Assembly (NCBI GenBank): GCA_017656235.1
Contig: JACDOF010000001.1
Coordinates: forward strand, 310,001 to 374,000
Direction of reading: 5' to 3'
Source of the DNA: Brevibacillus sp.
Lineage (GTDB): Bacteria; Bacillota; Bacilli; Brevibacillales; Brevibacillaceae
DNA: 64,000 nucleotides
The notes below the pieces were generated by a model. It was not told the origin of the DNA and searched no databases. It saw nothing but the letters and a program-made list of their open reading frames with translations. Both the position numbers and the translations under genes were made by a program. Of the stretch, positions 2,946 through 51,289 are shown in pieces. Position 1 is the stretch's first letter, and each line of letters starts with the position of its first letter.

Positions 2946-3955
2946 AAGCGATGAGGGAACTGCGTCCGGTGGGAATCTACGCAACTGGTTCCTACGTACC
3001 GGAGAGGGTGCTGACCAATGCCGATCTGGAAAAAATGGTGGATACCTCTGACGAATGGATTGTGACGAGGACGGGAATTCGCGAGCGACGCCTTGCTTCT
3101 GCTGACCAGGCGTCCTCGGATTTGGCTTACGAAGCGGCGGTAAAGGCGCTGACGAAAGCAAACATCAGCGCTCAGGAACTGGACATGATTATCGTTGCAA
3201 CGGTCACGCCCGATATGATGTTTCCCTCCACGGCCTGCCTCCTGCAGGACAGGTTGGGCGCCAGCAAGGCGGCGGCCCTGGACGTTTCCGCTGCCTGCAC
3301 CGGTTTTATTTACGGCATTGCAACAGCCAGCCAGTTTATCGCCAACGGTCTGTATCGTTACGTATTGGTGGTTGGCGTGGAAACACTCTCCAAAATTACC
3401 GACTACACCGACCGCAACACATGCGTGCTGTTTGGCGACGGCGCTGGGGCGGCGCTTCTCGGTCCGGTGCCGCAGGGGTCCGGATTTCAGGCGTTTGAAC
3501 TGGGGGCGGAAGGTTCCGGCGGTCCGCTGCTGAGCCTGCCGGCAGGTGGTTCACGCATTCCGGCTTCCACTGATTCGGTTGCCAATCGCCTGCATTACAT
3601 TTCCATGTCGGGCAGTGAAGTATTCAAGTTCGCCGTCAGGGTCATGAACTCGTCTACGGAAGCCGTGCTGGAAAAAGCGGGAGTGAGTCGGGAGGAGCTC
3701 GATCTGCTGGTGCCGCACCAGGCGAACCTGCGCATTATTGACGCGGCAATCAAGCGGTTTGGCTTGTCGGAAGAAAAGGTGGTCGTCAACCTTGACCGCT
3801 ATGGCAACATGTCTTCCGCCTCCATTCCGGTCGCGTTGGATGAAGCACTGGAAGCAGGCCGGGTAAAGGAAGGCGATCATGTGGTTCTGGTCGGGTTTGG
3901 CGGCGGGTTGACATGGGGGGCAACCCTGTTGAAGTGGACATTCCAAAGGGCGTAA
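2942..3955 (+). CDS. fabH: beta-ketoacyl-ACP synthase III
   Basis: Condenses an acyl-CoA primer with malonyl-ACP to start fatty-acid synthesis. In branched-chain Bacillales the primers are usually branched, which is inference here. The Cys-His-Asn triad is visible: SAACTGF near 115, PHQANLRIID near 260 and GNMSSASIP near 290. The GTG at 2942 overlaps the plsX stop. An ATG three codons on (2951) is equally possible and gives the more usual N-terminus MRELRPVGI. Confidence 0.96.
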   Translation: MKAMRELRPVGIYATGSYVPERVLTNADLEKMVDTSDEWIVTRTGIRERRLASADQASSDLAYEAAVKALTKANISAQELDMIIVATVTPDMMFPSTACLLQDRLGASKAAALDVSAACTGFIYGIATASQFIANGLYRYVLVVGVETLSKITDYTDRNTCVLFGDGAGAALLGPVPQGSGFQAFELGAEGSGGPLLSLPAGGSRIPASTDSVANRLHYISMSGSEVFKFAVRVMNSSTEAVLEKAGVSREELDLLVPHQANLRIIDAAIKRFGLSEEKVVVNLDRYGNMSSASIPVALDEALEAGRVKEGDHVVLVGFGGGLTWGATLLKWTFQRA

Positions 3956-3967
3956 AGGAGTGGATAG

Positions 3968-4921
3968 GTGATGAGCAAAGTGGCATTCGTCTTTCCCGGC
4001 CAGGGATCACAATTTGTCGGGATGGGAGCGGAACTGGCAGAACACTCGGAGATGGCCGGGCAGATATTTCGTGAAGCCGACCGCGCTTTGGGCTTTTCGC
4101 TCTCCTCACTCTGTTTTGAAGGACCTGAAGACGAACTGCGCCTGACCGCCAACACGCAGCCGGCGATTCTTGCGGCCAGCGTGGCTGTTCTCGCTGCGCT
4201 GCGTGAGAAACTGCCTCAGGCCGTCCCCGACTTTGTCGCCGGACACAGCCTGGGTGAATATTCCGCCTTGGTGGCGGCAGGAGCGCTCGATTTCGCCGAC
4301 GCGGTCAAAACGGTACGTTTGCGCGGTCAGTTCATGGAAGAGGCGGTACCGGCCGGTAAGGGCGCAATGGCTGCGGTACTTGGCCTGGAGCGGTCGTTGC
4401 TGCAGGAGGTTTGCGATGCGGTAAGTGCCGGCGGCCACCCTGTCCAGTTGGCCAATCTCAACTGTCCGGGGCAAATTGTCATCTCCGGCAGTGCGGAAGG
4501 CGTCAAACTGGCCGGAGATCAGGCCAAAGAAGCGGGAGCCAAACGGGTCATGCCGCTGAATGTCAGCGGTCCGTTCCATTCATCGTTGATGACACCGGCT
4601 GCGGAAAAGCTGGCCGCCGTACTGGCGGATGTGACCATTCGGGATGCGGATGTTCCGGTCGTTGCCAATGTAACAGCCCGTCCCGTGAGGCATGCTGCTG
4701 AAATCAAAGACAGTCTCGTGCAGCAGGTGGCCTCTCCGGTGCTGTGGGAAGATTCGGTTCAGTACATGGTTGCAGCGGGGGTTACGACCTTTGTGGAGAT
4801 CGGCCCGGGCAAGGTGCTGACCGGTCTGATCAAAAAGATTGCGCCGAAAGAGGTGGCGGTCCATTCTGTCCAGGATGTGGCCGCACTTGAACAACTGGTG
4901 AATGGAGGGGTATTATGCTGA
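3968..4921 (+). CDS. fabD: malonyl-CoA:ACP transacylase
   Basis: Loads malonyl groups from CoA onto [15 protein letters not shown] opens the protein, the [10 protein letters not shown] nucleophile elbow carries the catalytic Ser near residue 90, and the partner His lies in GPFHSSLM. An AAAGGAG site lies 7 nt before GTG 3968 and 10 nt before ATG 3971, so either may start translation. The 3' end overlaps fabG by 7 nt. Confidence 0.96.
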
Positions 4922-5658
4922 CGGGTAAAGTTGCGCTTGTCACAGGCGCCTCGCGGGGGATCGGCAAAGCGATTGCGATCAGACTGGCAGAGGCCGGCGC
5001 TGACGTGGTGGTCAACTACGCAGGCAGCGAAGCAGCCGCCCAGGACACGGTGGAGAGTATTCAGGCACTCGGCAAAAAGGCGATCAAGATTCGCGCCAAT
5101 GTGGCCAACGCGGAAGAAGTGAACGAGATGTTCAAGATGGCGCTTGACCAGTTTGATCGCATCGACATTCTCGTCAACAATGCGGGGATCACGCGTGACA
5201 ACCTGTTGATGAGGATGAAGGACGAAGAGTGGGATGAAGTGATTGACACCAACCTGAAAGGTGTGTTTAACTGCATCAAGGCGGCCACCCGGCCCATGAT
5301 GAAACAGCGTTCCGGCCGCATCATCAACATCACCTCCGTCGTCGGTGTCCTGGGCAATCCCGGTCAGGCCAACTATGTGGCCGCCAAGGCCGGCGTAATC
5401 GGACTGACCAAGACTGCGGCCCGCGAGCTGGCATCCCGCAGCATCACGGTCAATGCGGTTGCGCCCGGTTTTATCGAGACGGACATGACCGATAAACTGG
5501 CCGACGACGTGAAAGCGAACATGCTGACTCAGATTCCGCTGGCCCGTTTTGGCCAGGTTGACGATATCGCCCAGGTGGTTTGCTTCCTCGCCTCTGACGC
5601 GGCGGGGTACATGACCGGTCAGACGCTGCACGTCGATGGCGGTATGTACATGGGCTAA
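4915..5658 (+). CDS. fabG: 3-oxoacyl-ACP reductase
   Basis: NADPH-dependent reduction of beta-ketoacyl-ACP. A classical short-chain dehydrogenase of 247 residues: GASRGIG nucleotide motif near residue 12, NNAG near 86, catalytic Ser region near 138 and YVAAK near 151. It ends with the family C-terminus [10 protein letters not shown]. It overlaps fabD, so the two are probably translationally coupled. Confidence 0.96.
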
Positions 5659-43270: not shown

Positions 43271-44125
43271 TTACGGCCTCTCATCCGGACGAGATCCCCT
43301 TTCACAGGATGTCCGCTCACCCGAACGCTCTTCGAGCCGGACACGCTGTGCATGCGTGTAAACATTCAGTCTGCCGCCGCGGATAAAGCCGACGGCCGTG
43401 ATGCCCAATTCTTCTGCAAGCGACAGAGCAAGGTCCGTCGGTGCCGACTTTGACAGCAGAATCCCGGCGCCGATCTTTGCCGCCTTGAGCAGCACCTCTG
43501 ACGAGATACGGCCGCTGAACACCAGGATTTTGTCCGCCATCGGCACGCCGTGTTTCAAGCAGTAGCCGTAGATTTTGTCCAGGGCGTTGTGCCGGCCGAT
43601 GTCGGAATAGCGGACGACGATGCCCTCCACCGTGCAAAGGGCGGCATTGTGTACGCCGCCTGTGCTCTGGTGGATCAACGAGCCATCCTGCAGTTCGTTC
43701 ATCAGCCGGATGCAGTCCAGTACCGTTACATCTGGTGCGCTCTCCACTGGTTTGGCTGTGCGTGCATCGCTAAAAAAGTAAAACGACTGTCTGCTTTTGC
43801 CGCAGCACGAGGTAATCCGCCGCTTTGTATAAAAACGCTGGTCGACTGTCAGCCGCTCGTGCAGGTCGACGTAAGCAAAGCCATTGTTGGTATCAATGAA
43901 AAGATGCTTCAAATCTCCGTGGGAGCGAATCACGCCTTCGGAGGCAAGAAAGCCGATGACCATCTCCTCAAGGTCGCTCGGGGTGCAGACGATGGTGGCG
44001 AATTCGGCATCGTTGACAAAAATCGTCAGCGGGTACTCCGTGACAATCTCTTCGTCCTCTTTCGCAAACAATCCGTTGCGGTACTTCACGGCCGCACGGA
44101 TTGTGGTGACGGATAAGTCTGTCAT
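43271..44125 (-). CDS. fdhD: formate dehydrogenase accessory sulfurtransferase FdhD
   Basis: Passes sulfur from a cysteine desulfurase to the molybdenum cofactor of formate dehydrogenase. 284 residues from the ATG at 44125, behind GGGAGGAT. The reactive cysteines lie in RRITSCCGKSR near 113, and the C-terminal RYSDIGRHNALDKIYG and FSGRISSEVLLKAAKIG motifs bind the GDP part of the cofactor. Longer readings extend into the divergent promoter region and lack a ribosome binding site. Divergent from the OFA transporter and close to the fdhF-like operon it serves. Confidence 0.94.
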   Translation of the reverse strand: MTDLSVTTIRAAVKYRNGLFAKEDEEIVTEYPLTIFVNDAEFATIVCTPSDLEEMVIGFLASEGVIRSHGDLKHLFIDTNNGFAYVDLHERLTVDQRFYTKRRITSCCGKSRQSFYFFSDARTAKPVESAPDVTVLDCIRLMNELQDGSLIHQSTGGVHNAALCTVEGIVVRYSDIGRHNALDKIYGYCLKHGVPMADKILVFSGRISSEVLLKAAKIGAGILLSKSAPTDLALSLAEELGITAVGFIRGGRLNVYTHAQRVRLEERSGERTSCERGSRPDERP

Positions 44126-44240: not shown

Positions 44241-44353
44241 ACTGCATGAACAACAGATGTCACAATATTGCCATATATATCCCGAAGGATTGCAATGACG
44301 CGGAATAGCGCTCCTGTTCACGGTCTTGTAGTCCTTTCGCGCGATGTAGGTGT

Positions 44354-44453
44354 CAGTTGAAACTTAGCAGCGACCCTGCCAAAGATTAACTGCCGCTCTT
44401 CTCCTTATTTGGGGCATATGTCCCAAAAATCAGGAGATGTGCGGCAGTTTTTT
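44354..44453 (+). ncRNA. candidate cis-regulatory RNA upstream of the OFA transporter
   Basis: A 42-nt core (44354-44395) matches the one upstream of the fdhF-like gene at 33 of 42 positions without gaps. It contains AGTTG-NN-ACTT (small hairpin), a GCAG-CGACC-CTGC hairpin at 44367-44379, the linker AAGATTAAC, and the 5' arm of an intrinsic terminator. The terminator pairs AACTGCCGC (44388-44396) with GCGGCAGTT (44441-44449), has further inner helices, and ends in T-run 44448-44453. This is the layout of a transcription-attenuating leader. I do not recognise the family. Confidence 0.6.
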
Positions 44454-44508
44454 CTTAATCTTACCATCATTATCAAAACATTCAACGTCAGAAGGGGATG
44501 AGAAATGG

Positions 44509-45774
44509 ATGCAGACACGGAAAAACCGTTGGCTCATTGCAGCCGCTGCGGTAGGAATCCACATCTCGATCGGCTCGGTGTACGCCTGGAGCGTCTTCAC
44601 CAAACCGCTGATCAACCAGTTTGGCTGGAGTTTGCAGGAGGTTTCTTTCACATTCAGCATTGCCATTTTGTTTTTGGGCTTGTCAGCCGCGTTCCTCGGC
44701 CATTTTGTAGAGCGGCACGGTCCACGTAAGGCGGGGACACTGGCATCGGTCTTTTTTGGCGCAGGGATTGCCGGTTCCGGCCTGGCTGTTAATCTGGAAT
44801 CACTCACTCTGTTATACCTGTTTTACGGCGTGCTGGGCGGAATTGGCCTCGGTGTGGGGTATATCACGCCGGTTTCCACACTGGTCAAGTGGTTCCCTGA
44901 CCGCCGCGGACTGGCGACAGGGCTGGCCATCATGGGATTCGGCTTTGCTTCCCTGATTAGCAGTCCGATCATGGCCCGGCTGATCGAAAGCGTAGGCATC
45001 GCCTCCACGTTCTACATTCTGGGCGTGATCTATTTCCTGGTGATGTTCGGCTCGGCCCAGTATCTTGAGCCGCCTGCTGAAGGATGGGTACCGGCCGGAT
45101 ACAAGGAGAAGCTGGAAGCAGGCAGAAAACGACCGCTGACAGATTTGTCCCAGTTAACGGCCAATGAAGCGGTGAAAACCTTGCGTTTTTACTGGTTGTG
45201 GCTGATGTTGTTCATCAATGTGACCTGCGGCATTGCGGTTATATCGGTCGCCTCGCCGATGGCTCAGGAAATCGCCGGTTTGACTCCGCTGGCTGCGGCG
45301 ACAATGGTTGGCTTGATGGGGCTGTTTAACGGACTTGGACGCATTGGGTGGGCGTCACTGTCTGACTACATCGGCAGGCCCAATACCTACACGGCCTTTT
45401 TCCTGATTCAAATCATCGCCTTTTTCCTGCTGCCGACGATTACAGATGCCCTCTTGTTCCAATTGGTTGTCTACATCATCCTGACCTGCTACGGCGGCGG
45501 GTTCGCCTCCATACCGGCCTATATTGGCGACCTGTTTGGCACCAAACAGTTGGGAGCCATTCACGGTTACATTCTCACCGCTTGGGCGGCAGCGGGACTG
45601 GCTGGTCCAATACTCGCCTCCTGGGTGCGTGAGACAACAGCCAGCTACACCGCCACGTTGTACATATTTGCTGGCATGTTCCTGGTTGCCTTGATCATCT
45701 CGTTGTTGATCCGACTCGACATCCGCAAGCTGAAAGAGCTTAACAATCAGAGACAAGCCGATCTGGCAAGCTGA
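44509..45774 (+). CDS. OFA-family MFS transporter (oxalate/formate antiporter-like)
   Basis: A 421-residue major facilitator protein with 12 predicted membrane segments. GIHISIGSVYAWSVFTKPL at the first helix and GLGVGYITPVSTLVKWFPDR near 115 are typical of the oxalate:formate antiporter family. Likely substrates are small carboxylates such as formate or oxalate; the neighbouring molybdoenzyme makes formate attractive, but this is inference. The ATG at 44509 follows AAGGGGATGAG. A conditional terminator lies between promoter and gene. Confidence 0.88.
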   Translation: MQTRKNRWLIAAAAVGIHISIGSVYAWSVFTKPLINQFGWSLQEVSFTFSIAILFLGLSAAFLGHFVERHGPRKAGTLASVFFGAGIAGSGLAVNLESLTLLYLFYGVLGGIGLGVGYITPVSTLVKWFPDRRGLATGLAIMGFGFASLISSPIMARLIESVGIASTFYILGVIYFLVMFGSAQYLEPPAEGWVPAGYKEKLEAGRKRPLTDLSQLTANEAVKTLRFYWLWLMLFINVTCGIAVISVASPMAQEIAGLTPLAAATMVGLMGLFNGLGRIGWASLSDYIGRPNTYTAFFLIQIIAFFLLPTITDALLFQLVVYIILTCYGGGFASIPAYIGDLFGTKQLGAIHGYILTAWAAAGLAGPILASWVRETTASYTATLYIFAGMFLVALIISLLIRLDIRKLKELNNQRQADLAS

Positions 45775-45798
45775 CTGGCGGTATGGCGCCGATACAAA

Positions 45799-45827
45799 TT
45801 GCGTAACGCTGCAATCAGTGATACAAT
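45799..45827 (+). promoter_or_regulatory. promoter of the DUF2294 gene
   Basis: TTGCGT (45799-45804) and the extended -10 TGA-TACAAT (45822-45827) are 17 bp apart. I see no separate promoter before the fdhF-like gene, so this one may drive the whole molybdenum operon. Confidence 0.65.
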
Positions 45828-45882
45828 ATTTCTACTACTTGGAAAATCGTAAGAATGTCTTGATTAAAGGATTGTATAGGAG

Positions 45883-46254
45883 ATGAACAAATACGAAGCG
45901 GAGTTTAGCAATCTTGTTCGAGCCTTTCGCAAGCGTCACATGGGCAAAGGCCCCAGCAAGATCGTGACCACCTTTTGCAAGCACTGGGCAATCTGTGAGA
46001 TGGAGGGCAACCTCTCACCGGTTGAGAAGTTTATCGCCAGCGCCGATGAGGGGAAACAGATGCTAAGGGCTGCGAGGACAGAAATGGTCAAGGAAATGTA
46101 CAAAAAGAATCGGCCTGTCGAGATGGAGGCACTGTTGGGGGCCAATCTGGTTGATCTTTTTGTGGACATCGATATTGAGAGAGACTTCGGCATGTCCATC
46201 TTCGTTTTCGATCAGAACATCGAAGAAAAGTTTTGCCGAGAAAAAGAAAAGTAG
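45883..46254 (+). CDS. DUF2294 domain-containing protein
   Basis: A 123-residue protein of the DUF2294 family, function unknown. It begins MNKYEAEFSNLVRAFRKRHMGKGP, a basic N-terminus that could contact nucleic acid. It includes CKHWAICEMEGNLSPVEKF near 30 and a hydrophobic LGANLVDLFVDIDIERDFGM core near 88. It lies between the two leader RNAs and directly before the fdhF-like gene. A role in controlling that gene is possible but unproven. AGGAG is unusually close to the ATG; AAAGGA further upstream may serve instead. Confidence 0.8.
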   Translation: MNKYEAEFSNLVRAFRKRHMGKGPSKIVTTFCKHWAICEMEGNLSPVEKFIASADEGKQMLRAARTEMVKEMYKKNRPVEMEALLGANLVDLFVDIDIERDFGMSIFVFDQNIEEKFCREKEK

Positions 46255-46258
46255 GCGA

Positions 46259-46410
46259 TTCATGACACTGTCCCGGCAGCGACCCTGCTTGGCGGCAGAC
46301 ATGAAGAGCCGATTGCTTCGCGAAGTTGGTACTTGGTAGCGACCCTGCTCAAGATTAACCACCGTGATCTCTTTTCCTGAAAAGGAAGACGATTTCGCGG
46401 TGGTTTTTTT
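46259..46410 (+). ncRNA. candidate cis-regulatory RNA upstream of the fdhF-like operon
   Basis: The core at 46323-46364 aligns to 44354-44395 without gaps, with the second hairpin as GTAG-CGACC-CTGC (46336-46348) and AAGATTAAC at 46351-46359. The terminator pairs AACCACCG (46357-46364) with CGGTGGTT (46398-46405), ending in seven T. Relative to the first leader, two stem positions change on both sides, keeping the pairs. A further copy of GCAG-CGACC-CTGC lies at 46276-46288 inside a TTCATG/CATGAA stem (46259-46264, 46300-46305), so this leader has a tandem element. Confidence 0.6.
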
Positions 46411-46477
46411 CTGGAACCATACTGTGCTTGGCCTTGAGCGCTGCAGCAAGAAAAAATCAAACGTGGGAGTGTTACCG

Positions 46478-48829
46478 ATGGGAAAGACAAAACACACGGG
46501 ACCGATAAAACTGGATACATCCTGGAAACCTTCTCTTTGGGCCAGTTTGGTACCGATGGGATTGGGAAAAGTGAAACCGCACCACATCCGCGATACACTC
46601 AAGGTGGTCTACGAGAACCGCGATAACCTTGCGTACGCCTGGCGAATCTTGAGCCAGGGAGTTTGTGACGGCTGTGCGCTGGGGGTCTCAGGACTAAAAG
46701 ACCAGACCTTGACCGGCCCACACCTTTGTACGACCCGTTTAAATGTCCTGCGCTTAAACACGATGCCGGCAATAGATCCGAAGTGGCTGGAGGATGTGGA
46801 GGCACTGCGCAGGCTGGACAGCACTCAACTGCGCAGGTTGGGCCGCATCCCGTATCCGCTGTCTCGCAAGCCGGGCGAAAAGAAGTTTACCCGCATCAGC
46901 TGGGATGAAGCCTTGGACAAAATCGCAGGCAAGATCAAGACGATTGACCCGAAGCAGTTGGCTTTTTACCTGACTTCCCGCGGCATCACCAACGAAGTGT
47001 ATTACGTCGCCGCCAAAGTGGCCCGGTTCCTGGGAACGAACAATATTGACAACGCCTCCCGGATTTGCCATTCGCCGAGTAAGACGGCCCTGAAGCGCTC
47101 GCTGGGTATTGGCGCATCAAGCTGCAACTACAAAGACTGGATTGGCACGGATGTGCTCGTCTTCTGGGGCTCGGTGGCCGCCAACAACCAACCGGTCTCC
47201 ACCAAGTACATGTACGCGGCGAAAAAGGCGGGAACCAGAATCATAACGATCAACCCGTATCGTGAACCGGCGATGGAAACCTATTGGATTCCGTCCATCC
47301 CTGAAAGTGCCCTGTTTGGAACGAAAATCGTGGACGATGTGTATCAGGTGAACATCGGCGGTGACATCGCCTTCATGAACGGGGTGATGAAGCACTGGTT
47401 CGAGATGGAGGAGAAGGAGCCCGGTTCGGCCATTGATCTTGCCTTTGTCCGGGAGCACACCAATGGCTACGAGGAAATAAAGGCACACGTGATGCGCTAT
47501 GACTGGGAGACATTGGAGAAATCGTCCGGGCTGTCTCGCGAGCGGATGCGGGAGTTTGCCGAACTGCTTGCCCGTGCCAAATCAGCCGTGTTTGTGTGGA
47601 GCATGGGGCTGACCCAGCATCGTTTCGGCACGGATAACGTATCCCAGGTGGCGAATCTGGCCATGCTGCGCGGATTTATTGGCCGTCAGAACTGCGGTGT
47701 CATGCCGATTCGCGGCCACAGCGGGGTGCAGGGGAGCGGTGAAATGGGTGCCGAACCGATGTCGCTGCCTGGCGGTGTACCGCTGGACGAGGAAAACATT
47801 GAGCGGATGGAAAAACTATGGGGCTTTCCGATTCCGCGCTGGCAGGGGGATATTGTCGGCGTATCGCTTGAGAACACGCTGCTGCCGGATGACCACGAAC
47901 GAAAAATCCGCCTCTTTTATACCAGCGGCGGCAACTTTTTGGAAACCATGCCCGACCCTGTATTCGTCAAGAAATGTTTGGAAAACGTGGAACTTCGGGT
48001 GCATCAGGATATCATCCTGAACACGTCCACACTGGTGGATGCCAAGGAAGAAGTGATTGTGCTGCCGGCCATGACCCGCTATGAGCAGCCGGGCGGAGGA
48101 ACATCCACCAGTACGGAGCGGATGGTCTACTTCAGTCCGGAGATAGAGGGACCGCGCATTGAGGAAGCCCGTTGTGAATGGGAGATTTACATCGACCTCG
48201 CCTCGCGGGTTTATCCCGAGCGCAAGCATCTGATCTCGTTTGCCAATGCCCAGGAGATACGCGAGGAAATCGCCAAGGCCAATCCCAACTATGACGGCAT
48301 TCAATACCTGAAAAAACGCGGTGATGTCTTTCAGTGGGGAGGAGCATGGCTGTGCGAGGATGGCATCTGCCCGACACCGGATGGAAGAGGCAACCTGATC
48401 CCGATTGAACTGCCGGAACTGCGCAAGCCGGAGGGGCATTTTTACGTAACCACCCGCCGCGGCAAGCAGTTTAACTCGATGATTTACAGCCAGACGGATC
48501 CATTTAACGGCGCCGACCGCTACGACGTCCTGATCAATCCCAAAGATGCGGCAGAGCTGGACATTCGCGACGGCGAAGCGATTGTGGTGTACAATAAGTA
48601 CGGAACCTTTCAGGGACGGGCAAAATACGCCGATACCAAAGAAGGAAATCTGCAGGTGTACTGGCCGGAAGGAAACGTGCTGATCCCCAAAGGGGTTTAC
48701 GAACAGCACGCGGGAATTCCCGAGTACAACACTGCGGTGATCGTGGAAAAGGCTGAGACCTTTCACGCCCGTAAAGACACCAAATACGTGGAAAAGCGGA
48801 TCGAAGAACTGGAGATGGAGATGGGGTGA
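46478..48829 (+). CDS. FdhF/YdeP family molybdopterin oxidoreductase
   Basis: A 783-residue molybdoenzyme alpha subunit. CDGCALG with a later Cys (PHLC) near the N-terminus may hold an iron-sulfur cluster. RISWDEALDKIAGKI opens the catalytic domain. The likely molybdenum ligand is Cys in SRICHSPSKTAL, standing where FdhF of E. coli has selenocysteine. The C-terminal part (residues about 650-783) is the cofactor-binding domain. Family members are annotated as formate dehydrogenases, but YdeP itself is linked to acid resistance and its activity is unproven. ATG 46478 follows GGGAG. Heads the mobA-moeA-mobB operon behind a conditional terminator. Confidence 0.87.
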   Translation: MGKTKHTGPIKLDTSWKPSLWASLVPMGLGKVKPHHIRDTLKVVYENRDNLAYAWRILSQGVCDGCALGVSGLKDQTLTGPHLCTTRLNVLRLNTMPAIDPKWLEDVEALRRLDSTQLRRLGRIPYPLSRKPGEKKFTRISWDEALDKIAGKIKTIDPKQLAFYLTSRGITNEVYYVAAKVARFLGTNNIDNASRICHSPSKTALKRSLGIGASSCNYKDWIGTDVLVFWGSVAANNQPVSTKYMYAAKKAGTRIITINPYREPAMETYWIPSIPESALFGTKIVDDVYQVNIGGDIAFMNGVMKHWFEMEEKEPGSAIDLAFVREHTNGYEEIKAHVMRYDWETLEKSSGLSRERMREFAELLARAKSAVFVWSMGLTQHRFGTDNVSQVANLAMLRGFIGRQNCGVMPIRGHSGVQGSGEMGAEPMSLPGGVPLDEENIERMEKLWGFPIPRWQGDIVGVSLENTLLPDDHERKIRLFYTSGGNFLETMPDPVFVKKCLENVELRVHQDIILNTSTLVDAKEEVIVLPAMTRYEQPGGGTSTSTERMVYFSPEIEGPRIEEARCEWEIYIDLASRVYPERKHLISFANAQEIREEIAKANPNYDGIQYLKKRGDVFQWGGAWLCEDGICPTPDGRGNLIPIELPELRKPEGHFYVTTRRGKQFNSMIYSQTDPFNGADRYDVLINPKDAAELDIRDGEAIVVYNKYGTFQGRAKYADTKEGNLQVYWPEGNVLIPKGVYEQHAGIPEYNTAVIVEKAETFHARKDTKYVEKRIEELEMEMG

Positions 48830-49491
48830 GCGGCGGACAGGGTACTGTGCACCCAGGCCATTCCCCCCTTTCCCTTTGTGGGGTAATACTGGCCGGAGGG
48901 CGTTCCAGCCGGATGGGGAGCCCAAAAGAACTTCTCGATTGGAAAGGTCGTCCGCTTTTGGTGCAGCTGGCAGAAAACGTCCAGGCAGTGGGCCTCTCCT
49001 GTCTGGTCGTGGCCAACGGACAGCATCCGCTGCCGCTGGAGAAGCTGACGGCAATGGGAGTAAGGGTGACGCCGGACGCGGTTGCTTCACGCGGGCCTGT
49101 CAGCGGGTTCTGTACGGCGATGAGACGGGAGAGTGCCGAAGCCTTTCTCGTTCTCTCCTGTGACCTGCCCTTCGCCGAACCTGAACAATTGAAGCTGTTG
49201 CTGGGCAATAGAGATGAGTTAAAGCACTGGGATGCAGTGATTCCCGAGCAAAGGGGACGGCTGCAGCCCCTTTTTGCGCTTTATCATCGGCGAACCCAAC
49301 CGCTGTGGGAGACAGCTTTCCAAAGTGGGCAATACCGGCTGATGGAGGTACTGAAGAAGTTGCGCATTCGAACACTTCCCGACAGCCTCCTCGATCAGTG
49401 GGCGACCTACAACATGAATACCCCGGACGATTATCGGATTGCGCTGCGAGAAAGGGAGAGAAGAGATGCGCTTTCACCGTCAAACGATTAG
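48826..49491 (+). CDS. mobA: molybdenum cofactor guanylyltransferase
   Basis: Attaches GMP to molybdopterin to give the guanine dinucleotide form. 221 residues with the nucleotide-binding VILAGGRSSRMGSPKELL near 20 and LSCDLPF near 109. The GTG at 48826 overlaps the stop of the fdhF-like gene, so translation is coupled. The first ~15 residues are extra relative to the family. The end overlaps moeA by 26 nt. Confidence 0.92.
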   Translation: MSGGQGTVHPGHSPLSLCGVILAGGRSSRMGSPKELLDWKGRPLLVQLAENVQAVGLSCLVVANGQHPLPLEKLTAMGVRVTPDAVASRGPVSGFCTAMRRESAEAFLVLSCDLPFAEPEQLKLLLGNRDELKHWDAVIPEQRGRLQPLFALYHRRTQPLWETAFQSGQYRLMEVLKKLRIRTLPDSLLDQWATYNMNTPDDYRIALRERERRDALSPSND

Positions 49492-50722
49492 TGTAGAGGA
49501 GGCCGTGGGCAAACTGCTGCAGCAGATCGGGCCGCTGGAGCCGGAAGAGGTGCCGCTTGCGGAAGCCTACGGACGAGTCTTGGCTCGCTCGGTGGCCGCA
49601 GCTTACGATTTGCCGCCGTTTGACCGATCCCCGCTGGACGGATACGCCGTGCGGGCGGAAGACACGATTGGCGCAGCACCACAGACCCCTGTCACGCTGC
49701 AGGTGGTGGGGACGATAGCAGCTGGAGAAGTGCCGAATCTCGTCGTCGGGAAAGGGCAGGCCTGCCGGATCATGACCGGTGCCATGATACCGGAGGGCGC
49801 CAATGCGGTGGTCATGTTTGAGCAAACGGAACATCCCGGGCACATGGGCCGAACGGTCCGGGTAAAGCGCGCGATGAAACCGGGGGAGAATCTTTCCAGA
49901 CGGGGAGAAGAGGTAAGGCAGGGCACGTGCGTGTTGAAGGAAGGCACAACGGTTGGCGCCGGGGCGTTGGCCTTGTTGGCCACCTTTGGTACAGCCGTCG
50001 TGCCGGTGAGACGTCGTCCGCGGGTCGGGATCATCTCGACGGGAAGTGAACTGATTGAGCCTGATCAACCCCTGGTGCCGGGCAAGATTCGCAACAGCAA
50101 TTCATTGATGATTGCCGGCATGGTCCGGGATGCGGGTGGACAGCCCGTCTTGTTCGGGCGGATGGCGGACGAGCTGGAGGAAGCCAAGCGGCAGCTCTCC
50201 CAATGGATTGGACAAGTGGATTTGCTGGTGACGACTGGCGGGGTGTCCGTTGGCGATTTTGACGTAATCGCCGCCCTCGTCGACGAACCGGAGTTTCACC
50301 TGCTGTTTCAACGTGTGGCGATGCGTCCCGGCAGCCCTACGACGGCTTTTGTGTACCGGGATAAACTGGTGTGCGCCTTGTCTGGCAATCCATCCGCCAG
50401 TTACGTAGGCTGTGAATTGTTCGTCAAGCCGGTAATGGCCAAACTGTTGGGGAAGGAAGCAGTGACGCCCACTGTTACCGATGCCGTTTTGGCGGAGGAT
50501 TACCTCAAGCCCTGTCCGTATCCACGATACCTGCGGGGCAGATTGCAGGTGCGGGATGCGGTGCTGTATGCGTACCCTGACAAGAATGACAAGGCAGGCA
50601 TGCTGGTTACGCTCCACGCCAGCAACTGTTTGATTGTCATCCCTCCTGGAGGCAGAGGCAAACAGGCAGGGGAGCGGGTCCGCATCTATCCACTTGCGAC
50701 AAGTGAACAAATGCTTTTCTAG
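49466..50722 (+). CDS. moeA: molybdopterin molybdenumtransferase MoeA
   Basis: Inserts molybdate into adenylated molybdopterin. 418 residues: FDRSPLDGYAVR near 52, TGAMIPEGANAVVMFE near 104, STGSELIE near 190 and TTGGVSVGDFD near 261 are the MoeA signatures. The ATG at 49466 lies in the mobA 3' end, following GGGAGAGAAG. Coupled with mobA. Confidence 0.95.
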   Translation: MRFHRQTISVEEAVGKLLQQIGPLEPEEVPLAEAYGRVLARSVAAAYDLPPFDRSPLDGYAVRAEDTIGAAPQTPVTLQVVGTIAAGEVPNLVVGKGQACRIMTGAMIPEGANAVVMFEQTEHPGHMGRTVRVKRAMKPGENLSRRGEEVRQGTCVLKEGTTVGAGALALLATFGTAVVPVRRRPRVGIISTGSELIEPDQPLVPGKIRNSNSLMIAGMVRDAGGQPVLFGRMADELEEAKRQLSQWIGQVDLLVTTGGVSVGDFDVIAALVDEPEFHLLFQRVAMRPGSPTTAFVYRDKLVCALSGNPSASYVGCELFVKPVMAKLLGKEAVTPTVTDAVLAEDYLKPCPYPRYLRGRLQVRDAVLYAYPDKNDKAGMLVTLHASNCLIVIPPGGRGKQAGERVRIYPLATSEQMLF

Positions 50723-50725
50723 TAC

Positions 50726-51289
50726 ATGCTGCAAGGAATGAAATCCATCAACAAGGGAAAAGAGGTGCAGGTGGCGGTGCCCCAACTCCCTCCGATTATC
50801 CAGATTGTAGGTTACGCCAATACGGGAAAAACGACGTTGATCACAGAACTGATTCGCTGCTTTCAACAACTGGATCGCCGGGTTGGTGTCATCAAACGGG
50901 ACGGACATGACCACGAATGGGAACGGGAGGGTACGGATACGTGGAGGTTCCGAGAAGCGGGAGCACCACTTGTGGCCCTTCAATCTTCTTCCAAGACGGC
51001 CTGGTTTGAACAACAATCGCTGTCACTTTCGGACCTCGTTTGGCGGATGGGGCAGGCGGGAGCAGACTTGATCATCGTGGAGGGGTTCAAGACAGCGGCC
51101 TATCCCAAACTGCTCCTGGTTCGTGCTCCACAGCAGCTTGCTTTACTTGATCAACTGACCGCTTGTCGAGCCATCGTCAGTTGGTTTCCTTTTCAGCACC
51201 CGGTACTCCCTGTGTTTTCCATTGATGATCAGAAGCGGGTGGCATCGTTTGTGGAAGCTCTCTTGTTATCTGATGCGGAGCGAAAATGA
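50726..51289 (+). CDS. mobB: molybdopterin-guanine dinucleotide biosynthesis adaptor MobB
   Basis: A P-loop GTPase that aids MobA or cofactor delivery. IIQIVGYANTGKTTLITELI carries Walker A near residue 30, and VIKRDGHDHEWEREGTDTWR is the MobB signature. The start is uncertain: ATG 50726 lacks a ribosome binding site, whereas GTG 50771 has AGAGG 5 nt before and gives an N-terminus closer to the P-loop, as is usual. Last gene of the operon, followed by a terminator. Confidence 0.93.
   Translation: MLQGMKSINKGKEVQVAVPQLPPIIQIVGYANTGKTTLITELIRCFQQLDRRVGVIKRDGHDHEWEREGTDTWRFREAGAPLVALQSSSKTAWFEQQSLSLSDLVWRMGQAGADLIIVEGFKTAAYPKLLLVRAPQQLALLDQLTACRAIVSWFPFQHPVLPVFSIDDQKRVASFVEALLLSDAERK

Follow-up and report, generated by a model that had tools for sequence, protein, structure and literature searches.

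A 64,000-nucleotide stretch of a Brevibacillus sp. genome (GCA_017656235.1, contig JACDOF010000001.1, positions 310,001 to 374,000; "the window", whose own numbering is used for its features) contains two leader RNAs, one in front of a transporter gene and the other in front of a molybdenum oxidoreductase gene, with a gene for a protein of the DUF2294/MpsC family (PF10057) between them. Both leaders are members of a conserved family of RNAs that Rfam 15 lacks. Their reading as a switch between an antiterminator hairpin, P2, and an intrinsic terminator is well supported by sequence comparison, and we consider it rather probable that the leaders are antitermination switches held, most likely, by DUF2294 and responding to formate or formate metabolism.

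The cores of the two leaders (44354-44395 and 46323-46364) are identical at 33 of 42 positions without gaps, as a preliminary description of the window had counted. The 3.6 Mb genome holds two exact copies of the shared pattern, AGCGACCCTGC-YN-AAGATTAAC, and two more places that match it with three mismatches. When up to two mismatches were allowed, the pattern was present in 13 of 99 genomes, the window's own included, and a reversed control pattern in none of the 99. The preliminary description had divided the core into a separate small AGTTG..ACTT hairpin and an invariant AAGATTAAC linker. Instead, both are parts of a single extended hairpin, P2, composed of an outer helix (GUUGGN/NYUAAC), a 5' bulge, a middle helix (CUU/AAG), a 3' bulge and an apical stem (GGUAG/CUGCU); the mini-hairpin was dropped in favour of the covarying GUU/AAC and CUU/AAG pairings, and 72 of 76 cores had a minimum free energy fold in which two or all three AAC bases of the supposed linker paired with the 5' arm. 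On the plus strand of the window, P2 spans 44354-44392 in leader 1 (CAGTT...GCAG-CGACC-CTGC...AACTG) and 46325-46359 in leader 2 (GTTGGT...GTAG-CGACC-CTGC...ATTAAC), both placed by alignment, folding and covariation. In an alignment of 76 non-redundant cores, the apical part reads GUAG-CGNNC-CUGC with a YGNNC loop; the loop varies in length from about 4 to 7 nt, and the closing A-U and G-C pairs are invariant.

Covariation in the same 76 sequences supports this structure. Standard pairs filled 86.7% of the P2 pair cells, and 8 of the 14 pairs had changed on both sides. There were 50 double-change cells compared to 16.4 in shuffled alignments, a value reached by none of 500 shuffles, and the covariation score was 0.240, compared to 0.142 after shuffling and 0.03-0.09 when the structure was slid along the alignment. 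The alignment was built without structure, and most of its members had been collected with a structure-bearing model. Significance was reached only with the 76 sequences: a first set of 15 gave no clear excess over shuffles, its covariation score being matched by 39 of 500 and the other measures by more.

Because the 3' strand of P2 doubles as the 5' arm of the terminator, the two structures are mutually exclusive. The shared arm is AACTGCCGC in leader 1 (terminator at 44388-44454) and AACCACCG in leader 2 (46357-46411), both on the plus strand; the compensating arm changes pointed out in the preliminary description are visible in the sequence, and both terminators fold. Across the family, a terminator-like stem starting inside the core was present in 125 of 128 leaders (130 model matches minus two that proved to be upstream hairpins, L079 3184 and L113 3509), compared to 187 of 1280 (14.6%) when the downstream DNA was shuffled. 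Leader segments that include the terminator gave much more stable folds than shuffled sequences (z -4.0 to -7.9). A generic promoter and terminator scan reported neither leader terminator, as it takes loops of no more than 8 and theirs are longer; nor did it list a plus-strand promoter upstream of leader 1. Rfam 15 gave no match at the gathering threshold in the window, with T-box, molybdenum cofactor (Moco), guanidine-II and other families included, and none in ten loci of the sister class described below; below the threshold, the leaders scored highest against rdlD (25 of 50 bits). A known riboswitch, T-box or Moco RNA was rejected on these grounds, in line with the earlier impression.

We searched 398 Bacilli genomes (145 genera) with R1, a covariance model of the window's element, here class A. 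It matched in 51 genomes and 19 genera, leaving 49 genomes after two matches that overlap unrelated open reading frames (ORFs) were judged false (G157, G333). In a phylum-wide sample, 2 of 398 genomes matched, both of them Bacilli. A pattern scan of named genomes yielded 60 loci in Bacillus, Metabacillus, Mesobacillus, Cytobacillus, Brevibacillus, Halalkalibacter, Paenibacillus and relatives, 56 of them with a model match; the other four (L097, L116, L135, L142) were taken as chance. Among 130 distinct matches, the next recognised gene was a formate dehydrogenase (FDH) in 68, a major facilitator superfamily (MFS) transporter in 50, moeA in five (in L081 behind fdhD), DUF2294 in two and fdhD in one; four had no assigned next gene, three of these lying at the end of the fetched stretch. 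The covariance search proposed in the preliminary description has thus found matches in other Bacilli before formate and molybdenum genes, with covarying stems, and since both leaders recur across families, the recent local duplication that it had considered is ruled out. Two of the element-preceded FDH genes (L063:942-3056 and L074:2657-4747, both on the minus strand) contain an in-frame TGA (CNRT-TGA-HAPSVTG) that aligns with a cysteine of the window's FDH, making them candidate selenocysteine formate dehydrogenases in Bacilli. The L074 element lies on a different contig from the DUF2294 gene listed for that genome, so that control in trans is plausible.

The presence of the element is closely matched by that of DUF2294. 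Close homologs (at least 193 bits, the next score being 140 bits) were found in 47 of the 398 genomes, all within the 49 element-positive ones, and a DUF2294 match was present in all 29 element-bearing genomes checked. Of 67 genomes with an FDH of at least 65% identity, 41 carry the element; a close DUF2294 occurs in none of the 26 that do not. The FDH loci of 20 of these 26 genomes were fetched, and no element was found in any of the 20 at E<=10; in two of them (L155, L161) a transporter stands beside the FDH without DUF2294, and in a third (L153) the transporter is retained with a distant DUF2294. Conversely, six genomes (G005, G011, G012, G014, G017, G027) carry element and DUF2294 with no FDH match at E<=1e-150. 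On an FDH tree, the element changed at least 8 times on starred branches and 13 times on the best tree, and DUF2294 followed it in 7.7 of 8 independent pairs (median p 0.008). The tree was built with a quick method from 66 of 68 loci (L118 and L132 gave no usable ORF), and DUF2294 states were assigned by the analyst.

A sister class of leaders was found beside more distant DUF2294 genes (42-58% identity). Its consensus is GGAUUGG..(A)GUAC-loop-GUGC(U)..CUACUCC, with the same layout and a 3' strand that is again common to the terminator. Of 54 loci, 27 had a GUA[CG]..[CG]UGC hairpin pattern in the 420 nt that follow DUF2294, compared to 11.8% in shuffles; at other loci the element stands divergently beside the gene. 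The model R3, built from 21 sister-class sequences, contained 20 double-change cells compared to 10.0 in shuffles (none of 500 as high). At E<=0.05 it matched 51 of 80 genomes that have DUF2294 and lack class A; among DUF2294-negative genomes, defined as those in which the window's DUF2294 found nothing at E<=1e-20, it matched 3 of 80. With the 20 seed genomes excluded, 31 of 60 DUF2294-positive genomes still matched (Fisher p 2e-11), and in 29 of these 31 the element lay within 300 nt of a DUF2294 gene, G095 and G182 having it in trans only. Among DUF2294-negative genomes, G100 carries two copies without a terminator, which were rejected, and G066 a marginal match (E 0.037) read by eye. The RNA class also follows the protein phylogeny: on a quick DUF2294 tree there were 6 label changes, compared to a minimum of 3 and a shuffled mean of 21.4, with G060 (flagged long branches) and G161 as exceptions.

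The targets of the sister class include an NAD-dependent FDH (L169; NF005750, 558.9 bits, cut-off 329), a formate/nitrite (FNT) channel (L189; TIGR00790, 248 vs 232.3) and moaA (L263; TIGR02666, over the curated cut-off). Twenty fetched places comprised nine FDH-alpha-like, four UPF0126-like and two moaA targets, three without a clear target (L259-L261) and the two in G100, with names given by eye except for L253 and L263. The FDH-alpha-like ORFs were named from their starts, and for five of them the window's FDH gave matches of E 1e-43 or better in the stretch that follows. Since the wider family precedes an NAD-dependent FDH and an FNT channel, formate appears to be its common theme and molybdenum secondary; the formate and molybdenum context proposed in the preliminary description holds for the genes, with its molybdenum side demoted. 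Formate being what otherwise unlike targets have in common, we infer a formate-related signal.

The window's DUF2294 protein (45883-46254, plus strand) is a member of PF10057, scoring 113.7 bits (gathering cut-off 23), a family named after a sodium-translocating system. Its AlphaFold prediction is compact (predicted local distance difference test score, 90.8). Across 50 sequences, R16, K17 and R65 are invariant and R13 and K22 nearly so, beside a GKGP motif. Because it is encoded at the element, tracks the element independently of FDH, is compact and has invariant basic residues, DUF2294 is the best candidate for the protein that reads the hairpin, and it is probably an RNA-binding antiterminator of a formate regulon, the partner being suggested by co-occurrence and the signal by gene content. 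The preliminary description had seen a ligand- or protein-responsive attenuator; the attenuator stands, and co-occurrence now favours a protein, DUF2294, on the point that it had left undecided.

In the mechanism that we propose, the nascent RNA would by default form the terminator, and transcription would end before the gene. Judging from the sequence, the antiterminator needs stabilisation to prevail over so strong a terminator. While P2 is kept folded, its 3' strand (..YUAAC) should not be available as the 5' arm of the terminator, and RNA polymerase should read through. The holder would most likely be DUF2294, encoded between the leaders in the window and divergently beside a leader in other Bacilli, which may bind the apical stem-loop, GUAG-CGNNC-CUGC here and GUAC..GUGC in the sister class. 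Formate or formate metabolism would be sensed directly or indirectly, and the predicted outcome is that formate dehydrogenases, maturation genes and carboxylate/formate transporters are switched on, with positive feedback on DUF2294 itself.

Each leader also holds an upstream hairpin, P1, which had been overlooked in the preliminary description. In leader 1 (44301-44323, plus strand; CGGAATAG-CGCTC-CTGTTC-A-CGG, with AGCGCTCCT inside it) it is a diverged upstream copy of the apical hairpin. In leader 2 (46268-46298, plus strand) its apical part, 46273-46292, reads CCGGCAG-CGACC-CTGCTTGG, and the 11-mer AGCGACCCTGC recurs exactly at 46278-46288. P1 was detected in 41 of 48 leaders of oxalate/formate antiporter (OFA)-type transporters (50 matches minus the two that were P1 itself) and in 17 of 68 FDH leaders, compared to 0.5% of mononucleotide-shuffled upstream regions. 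With so few FDH leaders carrying it, P1 was rejected as an obligatory partner hairpin. It may serve as an upstream recruitment site, akin to the recruitment hairpin that has been proposed for the ANTAR protein EutV (PMC8934654).

Three other explanations were weighed. A riboswitch, with P2 stabilised against the terminator by binding of formate, a one-carbon intermediate or a precursor of the molybdenum cofactor, and with DUF2294 as just one more operon protein, strikes us as unlikely. The apical loop and bulges are indeed conserved, and the leader lies directly before pathway genes with formate-related targets, but there is little reason for such an RNA to follow DUF2294 instead of FDH or the transporter. 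Moreover, the core is a single hairpin of about 36 nt with no pseudoknot seen, its loop is variable in length, and loop and closing pair differ between the classes, so that a protein reader is likelier than a small-molecule pocket. The mini-ykkC or guanidine-II riboswitch has tandem small hairpins with CG-containing loops, as the leaders do, but these differ from it in having no Rfam match, in often lacking P1 and in placing the antiterminator geometry in a single hairpin.

Somewhat less likely still is that a different RNA-binding protein, of a further kind or a general antiterminator, runs the switch in place of DUF2294. The ribonucleic antiterminator (RAT) of BglG/LicT-type systems is one imperfect hairpin of about 30-40 nt overlapping the terminator 5' arm, an arrangement like that of P2 in 125 of 128 leaders. 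However, the sequence of the element differs from the RAT consensus, and the RNA-binding domain CAT_RBD was found in 21 of the 29 element-bearing genomes (the window's own, G000, included) and not in the other eight. The dual-hexaloop ANTAR targets of EutV and NasR are similar in layout, with small upstream and downstream hairpins that have alike loops and the second overlapping an intrinsic terminator, as described in two reports (PMC3369931, PMC8934654). Unlike ANTAR loops, which are hexaloops with A1 and G4, the loop of the element is YGNNC closed by AG/CU; both tandem hairpins are needed there, whereas P1 is undetected in most FDH leaders here; and ANTAR scored over the cut-off in 15 of the 29 genomes and was not found in the window's own, in agreement with the preliminary description, which had not recognised the core as an ANTAR target. 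Neither ANTAR nor CAT_RBD, the two rival families searched, was present in G003, G058, G060 and G077, against the DUF2294 match in all 29 genomes. As neither family tracks the element, an ANTAR or BglG-type partner was rejected; by analogy the element resembles protein-dependent antitermination of the ANTAR, BglG/LicT and HutP kinds, while belonging to neither of the first two. That the hairpins are mere structured terminators or mRNA-processing sites without a regulated switch is very improbable, for even though only segments with the terminator fold well and the upstream parts by themselves are no better than shuffles (z -0.80, -0.85), the terminator-excluding hairpin is conserved and covaries, with a 5' strand that is kept although it lies outside the terminator.

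Several points weigh against DUF2294-dependent antitermination as proposed here, beginning with this poor folding of the upstream leader parts and the absence of a detectable P1 from 51 of 68 FDH leaders. DUF2294 is itself an operon member, so part of its co-occurrence with the element may be operon inheritance. Two genomes have a class A element with divergent DUF2294 proteins only, G161 with a distant paralog (47%) and G060 with two copies (45-48%), these diverged genes lying in the element locus itself, and there are DUF2294 loci without a recognised element (L174, L175, L177 and others). Covariation is less strong in the sister class, where two of five measures were not above shuffles and the structure slid by -1 scored nearly as high (21 double-change cells, 0.190), in part because several rows sit one column off. 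R3 found no match in 29 of the 80 DUF2294-positive genomes, and in G137 a weak sister-class element precedes an FDH; neither the surrounding 7 kb nor a search at E<=1e-20 gave a DUF2294 there. This element (L273, near local 3536-3580, minus strand), whose apical stem departs from GUAC/GUGC, looks real or decaying, possibly after loss of the protein. With regard to the protein, structure searches gave no clear PDB relative for the predicted fold (best Foldseek E 0.018; best VIA Z 7.3, to an FtsK motor domain), weak matches that exclude no fold. Since no RNA-binding fold was recognised by them and the net charge is about zero (21 K+R, 21 D+E), RNA binding by DUF2294 is something that we infer. 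In addition, an mpsC deletion in S. aureus had no growth phenotype, according to PMC6689103.

Searches of the open-access PubMed Central literature found no paper describing this RNA/DUF2294 system and no RNA-related role for DUF2294/MpsC. A broader reading, to which we give about even weight, is that the DUF2294/MpsC proteins of Bacilli are RNA-binding antiterminators linked to formate, a family so far unrecognised as such. They would co-diversify with hairpin targets of both classes and would control, both in cis and in trans, chemically different FDHs (molybdenum, candidate selenocysteine and NAD-dependent), together with cofactor genes, channels for formate and monocarboxylate transporters. 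If true, DUF2294/MpsC, a widespread small protein, would gain a concrete and testable function, and it would be explained how Bacilli turn on very different formate-oxidising enzymes through one RNA signal. The element adds an antiterminator RNA family to those in Rfam 15, and a confirmed formate signal would make it a formate-linked switch usable in synthetic biology.

In the window, the first gene after leader 1 encodes an MFS monocarboxylate transporter (44509-45774, plus strand; the reference used in the scan started 3 bases earlier, at 44506). The preliminary label of OFA transporter needs correction: the protein is OFA-related, but it passes the cut-off as an L-lactate MFS transporter (NF049980, 469.7 vs 320) and stays under that of the oxalate/formate antiporter models. 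Leader 2 precedes an FdhF/YdeP-family molybdenum oxidoreductase (TIGR01701; 46478-48829, plus strand), followed 3' by the molybdenum cofactor genes mobA, moeA and mobB (48826-51289, plus strand), and fdhD (43271-44125, minus strand) is divergent from leader 1. An GTCACAAT-like stretch at 44260-44267, also seen 5' of P1 in several OFA leaders, is a possible operator.

Further observations concern individual loci. In L078 (G018), a transposase-like ORF (TnpB-type, by eye; 4401-5141) lies between fdhD and DUF2294, the place of the OFA gene in relatives; P1 is kept there and P2 of that leader looks decayed. A second group of DUF2294 paralogs, about 45-47% identical to the window protein, is represented by L065:110-460 (+), L072:306-665 (+) and L153:7232-7579 (-), and in L065 the paralog adjoins the linked gene. 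The UPF0126-like protein follows a sister-class element in four trans cases (L253, L254, L258, L262); that of L253 matches Pfam Gly_transporter, and the protein may belong to formate or glycine metabolism. L206:2198-2252 (-) and L215:1207-1262 (+) contain GUAG..CUGC-type hairpins whose outer part differs, located before formate-channel-like genes (checked for L215), by eye possibly a third class. Finally, the f18 group (L153, L174) has a different-looking structure before a transporter.

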